A stretch of 38,263 nucleotides of DNA from Alkalinema sp. RU_4_3. Its GTDB lineage: Bacteria > Cyanobacteriota > Cyanobacteriia > Leptolyngbyales > Leptolyngbyaceae. The position numbers and the translations under genes are program-made. The stretch lies in contig JAAUSA010000020.1 of NCBI GenBank assembly GCA_012031975.1, forward strand, positions 1 to 38,263, written 5' to 3'. Under the pieces are notes generated by a model. The model saw only the letters and a list, made by a program, of their open reading frames with translations, was not told the origin of the DNA and made no database searches. Each line of letters starts with the position of its first letter. Position 1 is the stretch's first letter. Positions 15,881 to 26,305 of this stretch are shown here, in pieces.

Positions 15881-16274
15881 CCGTGCTACTACGACGGTTC
15901 AGGTTAAGAATCCGGATGATTTGTGGTAAACATGTTGAGATTATTGACCAACGCTTAACGGGATTAGGTTACTGTGGTCTGGACCATCCCGGCAAACTAG
16001 CCTGGGATCTGGTTTTGGTCGGATATTGCCCCTGCATATACCTACAATGCCTCGATGAATGAGTGATCGGGGTCACACTTAAGACAGTCTTCTATCTGGC
16101 ACACACAATGTTGTGGAATTTGGCTCGCTTCTTAGGGATTTCTCTAGATAAGGGTTTGCCGCGATGCTTCGCAAACCGTCATATTGTTAAGCTCTGTTGC
16201 AGGACGCTTTAGATCCGCAAAAAGCCCGTGATAGGATGCAATCGTCGCTTAAAAAACGTTTTGGAGAAAGAGCT

Positions 16275-24948: not shown

Positions 24949-24980
24949 GTGGCCCGCTGCTTTTAAAAGCAGCGGGCCAC
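24949..24980. terminator. Perfect 32-base palindrome after mscL
   Basis: The 16-base arms are perfectly complementary and meet without a spacer at TTTTAAAA. The stem is GC-rich on its outer part. It starts 58 bases past the mscL stop; no T-run follows on the plus strand, so it could equally act as a stabilising 3' hairpin. Confidence 0.7.
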
Positions 24981-25055: not shown

Positions 25056-25071
25056 AGTGATCCAGATCACC
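25056..25071. promoter_or_regulatory. CRP-family (SyCRP1-like) binding-site candidate
   Basis: AGTGATCCAGATCACC is a near-perfect palindrome with arms GTGATC/GATCAC. It matches the CRP consensus TGTGA-N6-TCACA at eight of ten fixed positions and is close to sites bound by the cyanobacterial cAMP receptor protein. It lies 240 bases before the 48-residue gene and about 80 bases upstream of a TATAAAA at 25147-25153, so activation of that promoter is plausible but inferred. Confidence 0.5.
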
Positions 25072-25146
25072 AAATTAGGTGGGTTTAAACCTGTGACAAG
25101 GGGCGATAAACCTCACATCAAGATTCGGTTTAGATCACTGCATCTC

Positions 25147-25153
25147 TATAAAA
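25147..25153 (+). promoter_or_regulatory. Possible -10 element of the 48-residue gene
   Basis: TATAAAA lies about 145 bases upstream of the small open frame at 25296 and downstream of the CRP-like palindrome. No consensus -35 is seen, which would fit an activated promoter. The implied leader is long (about 135 bases). Confidence 0.35.
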
Positions 25154-25295
25154 GCTCTGGCATGATTTACACATACAAGAAAAGCAGCCGCAACTCATCT
25201 TCGTTACAGCGTTACAGATAATTGTTATTCTCCAGCACTTATCAACCAGGCCGACCGCTGCTTCTCAATGCTCTACAAATCAAAGGTGTATTCCC

Positions 25296-25442
25296 ATGAT
25301 GTACTACTCTCAGGCCGATCAACTTCAAGCCAATCCCGCTCAAGTGGCTCCATTACAGGCGATCGAGAATTCCGAAACCCCCCTATTTTGGAAATCGGCG
25401 GCTTCTCTCATCGGTTTCCTGCTCCTGGTAGCCCTTCTCTAG
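25296..25442 (+). CDS. Small single-TM membrane protein, unknown (48 residues)
   Basis: This open frame begins with two ATG codons (25296 and 25299) and has AAGG nine bases upstream. The first 30 residues are polar and Gln/Ala/Pro-rich (MMYYSQADQLQANPAQV...), followed by one hydrophobic segment at the C-terminus (FWKSAASLIGFLLLVALL) ending right at the stop. This tail-anchored layout, the good ribosome-binding site, an upstream promoter with a CRP-like site and a terminator 46 bases past the stop all support a real gene. I recognise no family. It resembles in size the small thylakoid or stress-induced membrane proteins of cyanobacteria, but has no chlorophyll-binding motif. Confidence 0.65.
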   Translation: MMYYSQADQLQANPAQVAPLQAIENSETPLFWKSAASLIGFLLLVALL

Positions 25443-25487
25443 GCACCCAGTGCGATCCAGATTTCTCCTCTCAGTAGAACAAAAACA

Positions 25488-25516
25488 AACCCCGACAGCC
25501 AAAAGGTTGTTGGGGT
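25488..25516. terminator. Bidirectional terminator between the 48-residue gene and tRNA-Arg
   Basis: A 10-base-pair stem (AACCCCGACA with TGTTGGGGTT, one G-U pair) has a nine-base loop. It is followed by TTCTTT on the plus strand and by a T-rich tail (TTGTTTTTG) on the minus strand. It thus serves both the plus-strand small gene and the minus-strand tRNA. Confidence 0.8.
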
Positions 25517-25529
25517 TTTCTTTAGTACA

Positions 25530-25870: not shown

Positions 25871-26305
25871 ATGGGCGCTATTGTCAACATTTTCAAAGCA
25901 ATTTTTGGCGGCATCTTCGGCCTATTTAGTAAGAAGAAAGATGGATTCTACATGGAAGCGGCTCCTGCAGAAGCAGCCCCGGCCAACGCGGCAGCCCCAG
26001 CGCCAGCCCCAGCGGTAGAATCTAACGCCAGCAATGGAAAGGTCGCTAAAACAAGTAAGACCTCAGCGAAGAAAGGTGAGGCTAAGCCTGCTGTTGCTGC
26101 GGTACAAAAAGCGACGGCTGCTCCCGAGCCCTTAGATTTGATCAATGCAGCGCTGGCTGCCTCCAAGGCGGCAACGGAAGAAGCTGCTGCTGCCGCTGGG
26201 GGCTTTGCGGATAAGTACATGATTCCGCTGCCGCTGCCTACCCGTCGCCCCGGTGCCAACATGGCCATGTACAAGAGCATGGCTAAGGATATGAAGCGTT
26301 TCTAA
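25871..26305 (+). CDS. Conserved-looking cyanobacterial protein with amphipathic N-terminal helix, unknown function
   Basis: The 144-residue product has three parts. Residues 1-20 (MGAIVNIFKAIFGGIFGLF) form a hydrophobic/amphipathic helix that probably associates with a membrane, followed by KKKDG. Residues 29-115 are low-complexity, rich in Ala, Pro, Lys and Glu. The last 35 residues are ordered and basic: GGFADKYMIPLPLPTRRPG, then MYKSMAKDMKRF. Small proteins with a membrane helix, Ala/Pro linker and this kind of basic end (a PxPxxRRPG motif) occur in cyanobacteria, but I know of no assigned role. It has its own TATAAT, an AGGAG site and a perfect terminator, so it is a single-gene unit. 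Confidence 0.8.
   Translation: MGAIVNIFKAIFGGIFGLFSKKKDGFYMEAAPAEAAPANAAAPAPAPAVESNASNGKVAKTSKTSAKKGEAKPAVAAVQKATAAPEPLDLINAALAASKAATEEAAAAAGGFADKYMIPLPLPTRRPGANMAMYKSMAKDMKRF

Follow-up and report, generated by a model that had tools for sequence, protein, structure and literature searches.

Judged from sequence comparison, a 48-residue open reading frame (ORF) is a real microprotein gene that is conserved across several cyanobacterial families, and its promoter apparently follows an undescribed design, in which one CRP-type palindrome is followed by half-sites every 22 bp up to the transcription start. The ORF lies in a 38,263-nucleotide contig of Alkalinema sp. RU_4_3 (JAAUSA010000020.1), the whole of which we analyzed and refer to as the window. 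Through this gene we obtain a conserved, unnamed family of cyanobacterial microproteins, together with a defined promoter for it. By itself the 48-residue ORF is unremarkable, and it is the comparison with other genomes that makes the case. The locus comprises the following elements:

25056–25071, + strand: CRP-type palindrome AGTGATCCAGATCACC (AGTGATC and GATCACC on either side of CA), the distal array unit; centre 25063.5, predicted position −109.5
25112–25116, + strand: array half-site CTCAC, with its site centre predicted to lie at −63.5; the next unit follows after exactly 22 bp
25134–25138, + strand: proximal array half-site ATCAC, its site predicted to be centred at −41.5, the class II position
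25147–25153, + strand: TATAAAA, the −10 of the initial annotation; probably not the −10
25161–25166, + strand: CATGAT, the predicted −10 hexamer, lying 22 nt downstream of the proximal TCAC; transcription would start at about 25173
25173–25295, + strand: predicted 5′ untranslated region of about 123 nt, placed from the −10 position
25282–25288, + strand: weak Shine-Dalgarno-like AAAGGTG
25296–25442, + strand: microprotein ORF, 48 residues, ATG to TAG (MMYYSQADQLQANPAQVAPLQAIENSETPLFWKSAASLIGFLLLVALL)
25383–25439, + strand: C-terminal hydrophobic segment, residues 30–48, corresponding to the conserved family core
25487–25518, + strand: intrinsic terminator, 14-pair stem, z −3.6, beginning 45 nt past the ORF stop

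The upstream mscL gene has its own terminator (24949–24980), so the microprotein unit is monocistronic by layout. At the other end, the strong terminator noted in the initial annotation lies between the ORF and a convergent tRNA-Arg gene; its opposite strand likewise ends in a T-rich tract, and it probably serves the tRNA gene as well. The proposal that this is a complete small-protein gene missed by length cut-offs is borne out by the monocistronic layout and by the conservation of the protein family. The proposed ribosome-binding site, AAAGGTG, is present but weak, with GGAGGT at the equivalent place in most homologues. A further ORF in the window, at 25871–26305, encodes 144 residues, is rich in alanine in its central part, and has no match in Pfam.

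When searched with the 48 residues, the same family of genomes yields relatives, the best with E 1.9e-4. Iterated profiles extend the microprotein family to a further family of genomes, f13, which we take to be Microcoleaceae-like, and to f18, f24, f26, and f31, the weak matches in the outer families being less certain. Relatives are present in 58 of 390 genomes of the class, spanning 31 genera and at least six cyanobacterial families. The initial annotation had made its proposal depend on conservation beyond the closest strain, and the family is conserved well beyond it. A profile built without the window sequence, the members of which were originally found from the window and are not fully independent of it, matches the ORF alone among 886 window fragments (E 8.8e-9 for a genome-sized database). 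Members range from 27 to about 80 residues and share the core xxFPLFxQSAxxxxGFLLLxxLL, often with the stop immediately after it; no Pfam or NCBIfam model matches the four members tested.

Selection was assessed on relatives from nine species of one f13 genus, rather than on the window gene, for the genus of which no second genome was found. In these relatives 17 variable codons are purely synonymous versus 3 that are non-synonymous, and the variable sites are distributed 6/0/18 by codon position, with none at the second. The microprotein is under purifying selection in these relatives, and it is a conserved protein-coding gene with a conserved stop. The third-position and synonymous bias argues against a conserved regulatory RNA or leader within which the ORF is incidental, as do the GGAGGT-ATG start context conserved in relatives, the protein core conserved across families, and an Rfam scan in which tRNA is the sole match, with nothing at the microprotein leader or ORF. 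A long untranslated region (about 123 nt), together with the strong terminator found 45 nt past the stop, would suit such an RNA, but we consider it highly improbable.

Hydropathy supports a single C-terminal hydrophobic segment (residues 30–48, mean KD 2.08). The window protein and many relatives can be called "tail-anchored", but the term does not describe a family trait: by hydropathy and sequence, the segment is at the extreme C terminus in the window ORF and in clade B, whereas several clade A relatives, paralogues included, continue for 20–30 residues past it. Tandem duplicates of the gene occur at three loci. The role in motility or light responses first suggested for the product is speculation; no gene neighbour is conserved across the family to support either. 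In some Microcoleaceae-like genomes (three loci), gvpK (gas vesicle) lies ∼0.7 kb from the microprotein gene; seen in two genera, this proximity is too narrow a base for a functional reading. Many bacterial membrane microproteins are accessory or modulating subunits. By analogy, the product is most likely an accessory or modulating single-pass membrane subunit, with low confidence for any particular partner.

The palindrome upstream of the gene was described initially as a near-perfect CRP site. The site is present, but the description is overstated, as AGTGATCCAGATCACC matches the consensus TGTGA-N6-TCACA at 8/10 positions, with two mismatches. Three sites with at most two mismatches occur in the window, compared with a mean of 1.06 in shuffled sequence, and because about one is expected by chance the palindrome at 25056 is not significant alone. 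A CRP palindrome is, in addition, conserved at the equivalent position upstream of many homologues. The first reading missed TCAC words at 25113 and 25135, which are exactly 22 bp apart and follow the TCAC of the palindrome itself (25067). We counted every pair of TCAC words in the 350 nt upstream of each of the 69 family matches, a set of loci unselected by promoter and including several from one genus. This yields 47 pairs at 22 bp, in 12 genera, compared with five or fewer at each other spacing from 10 to 40 bp and with three pairs at 22 bp for a CACT control. The palindrome's TCAC precedes the word at 25113 by 46 bp. From this spacing the window array is a degenerate one, with a putative intermediate unit lost between the palindrome and 25113, and the three-unit array pattern has no match anywhere in the window's genome.

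An alignment of 13 clade A promoters, anchored on the GATGAT/CATGAT hexamer, has GATGAT at the −10 in 11 and CATGAT in the other 2, and the phasing and −10 spacing of the window promoter agree with those of the 12 others. CATGAT, rather than TATAAAA, is probably the −10, with transcription starting at about 25173, because the last TCAC precedes it by exactly 22 nt, the same distance as in the homologues and in unrelated arrays. This distance would place the adjacent CRP position at −41.5, a spacing compatible with activation, and no −35 is recognisable. Across the 5.25-Mb genome, two units plus the −10 occur together once, at this gene. These observations bear on a simpler arrangement, in which a single CRP site acts with TATAAAA as the −10 (start at about 25160) and the window's TCAC words are due to chance. 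The degenerate state of the array, with only two exactly phased units besides the palindrome, is in keeping with it. However, the agreement with 12 other promoters, the single occurrence of the combined pattern in 5.25 Mb, and the absence of TATAAAA as a conserved element in the promoter alignment make it improbable. Of the regulation proposed in the initial annotation, CRP-type control is supported at the level of sequence, by the conserved position of the palindrome and by a CRP with an RExxxR helix in the genome; the architecture of a single site with TATAAAA does not stand, given the phased array and the different −10.

Other regulators were considered and rejected. An NtcA promoter has GTA-N8-TAC, and the palindrome here is GTG-N8-CAC. 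The J-Box of SigJ, GGGaAtacT, is an extended −10 (PMC6495340) and is absent from the window leader. The Rre1 motif, GTNCGGK (PMC13421787), is not the repeated word of these arrays. Separately, a J-Box-like GGGAATGCT or GGGAATGTT lies between array and ORF in the leaders of three Microcoleaceae-like relatives. Elsewhere in the window, a second CRP-like site, AGTGATCGGGGTCACA (16062–16077), is found ∼120 bp before an ORF at 16197 that we called geranylgeranyl-reductase (chlP-like) by eye.

The 22-bp arrays are found well beyond this gene. A three-unit pattern gives 87 matches in 42 genomes of the family, versus 10 with a reversed-pattern control, and a four-unit pattern gives 154 versus 10 in 390 genomes of the class, distributed over 71 of the 390 genomes and 42 of 160 genera; some pattern matches are simple tandem repeats, and these were filtered out before the analyses of distinct arrays. 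All but 2 of the 47 distinct arrays are situated outside long ORFs. The left CRP half, TGTGA (at least 4/5 bases), is present in the distal unit of 32/45 arrays versus 0/143 inner units, so that the array consists of a full CRP palindrome with a train of single half-sites behind it. Among 38 array tails, most of them belonging to genes unrelated to the microprotein, a NATDNT hexamer is offset by 22 nt from the last TCAC in 22 tails and by 23 nt in 4, with other offsets represented at most twice. With this hexamer as the −10, the proximal unit would be centred at −41.5, where class II CRP sites lie.

Assigned by motif, the genes behind the 47 arrays encode 20 related proteins of 65–80 residues without a family model, 5 NF045583 HD proteins, 3 DUF4278 proteins, this microprotein once, and 18 products without assignment; DUF1830 and PAS-like proteins are also found behind arrays. 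The 65–80-residue proteins, such as "LLPGAIAELFAQASVTGVLTLADRYGLLAAIL" (four loci serve as examples), have no Pfam or NCBIfam model. The genes behind the ATCAC arrays may form one regulon, and the array design, which is commonest before small proteins lacking a family model, would define a regulon that can be read from sequence alone.

A candidate regulator is present in the window's genome. Its CRP has an FGEMAALxxxPRSTDV cyclic-nucleotide cassette (FGEMAALDEVPRSTDV) and LARETVTRVL with an RExxxR recognition helix, resembles solved cAMP-CRPs, and has a close homologue (72–81% identity) in all 42 genomes of the family. The recognition helix of a second CRP in the same genome lacks both arginines (IEEAGK; VEETxK and similar in relatives). 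This second paralogue is near-universal, and the helix lacking both DNA-reading arginines is conserved. Going by these helices, only the first CRP (RETVTR) should read TGTGA/TCAC. Among the CRP-family genes recovered from nine genomes, the TGTGA-reading helix is found only in the universal CRP1, and no CRP-family gene is confined to array-bearing genomes. The presence of CRP was rejected as an explanation of array distribution, as array-free genomes have CRP just as array-rich ones do. A glycine in the CRP2 recognition helix tracks the arrays (19/23 versus 1/17), but we rejected it as a specificity determinant: other columns do equally well, and the most array-rich genome is without it, pointing to shared ancestry. 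SyCRP1 and SyCRP2 reportedly function together in a complex (PMC13249358), and we infer that the two CRPs of the window's genome are their orthologues.

Considered together, these data lead us to favor, with confidence slightly above even, a monocistronic membrane-microprotein gene whose promoter is activated by CRP via a ladder of sites. A CRP homodimer, probably in a cAMP-dependent manner, would bind the distal palindrome, and further CRP units would load cooperatively, aligned over the ATCAC half-sites every 22 bp. These units are possibly CRP1 paired with CRP2, the recognition helix of which is degenerate, or else dimers that each read a single half-site. The last unit, at −41.5, would touch RNA polymerase at CATGAT and would be expected to activate rather than repress, and the product would insert into the membrane by its C-terminal helix. 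Several points count against this ladder: a CRP homodimer normally reads two half-sites, of which the inner units offer only one, the window array has a 46-bp gap with one unit missing, and the loci examined that we took to be slr0442-like have the palindrome and no 22-bp half-site train.

The main rival to the CRP ladder is that the array serves as the operator of a distinct regulator; a response regulator or an AraC-type protein, bound head to tail every 22 bp, would be an example. The palindrome would then be either a two-sided terminal unit or a CRP site of its own next to the array. That the inner units keep only ATCAC (left CRP half in 0/143), that CRP presence does not track the arrays, and that Synechocystis-like CRP targets have no array are all consistent with such a protein. 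In contrast, the distal unit carries the full CRP consensus TGTGATCnnnATCAC, in phase and sharing its TCAC, the unit length equals the CRP footprint, the proximal unit sits at the class II CRP position, and the TGTGA-reading helix is restricted to CRP1 among the genes recovered from nine genomes. We regard a distinct regulator as a serious but doubtful alternative and retain the CRP ladder. More tentatively, and with something short of even confidence, the arrays could represent a hitherto undescribed class of operator: a CRP palindrome would nucleate the cooperative assembly of a CRP-family train on 22-bp half-sites, possibly of CRP1/CRP2 pairs in which only CRP1 reads bases, and the train would control a dispersed regulon that includes tiny unnamed proteins, proteins of HD and PAS type, and this membrane microprotein. 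If CRP is the binder, the arrays would provide a DNA-encoded reason for the two CRP paralogues kept by these cyanobacteria.

We found no description of 22-bp TCAC arrays in cyanobacteria, or of the microprotein family, in the literature searched, most subscription journals being outside its scope. Among known systems, the SyCRP1 targets slr1667 and slr0442 of Synechocystis PCC 6803 have palindromes TGTGATCTGGGTCACA and TGTGATCCAGATCACA at −245 and −189 from the start codon (PMC2633013). The promoter described here has the same palindrome, likewise far upstream of the start codon, but the slr0442-like loci are without the half-site train and the products are unrelated. In E. coli class II CRP-dependent promoters the site is centred at −41.5. 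Here the proximal unit is at −41.5 of the predicted start, also with no recognisable −35, but it is a half-site only, with other half-sites at 22-bp intervals upstream of it and a full site at the distal end. Like the present array, Pho boxes and OmpR-type operators are tandem direct repeats upstream of a promoter; a cyanobacterial example has been described (PMC1906773). In contrast to these, the array has a period of 22 rather than 11, the word ATCAC, and a distal CRP palindrome. Finally, AtpTheta (PMC9241938) and PirA (PMC8092223) are small cyanobacterial proteins with regulatory roles; the window product resembles them in being a small cyanobacterial protein and differs as a membrane microprotein of an unnamed family without a Pfam or NCBIfam model.
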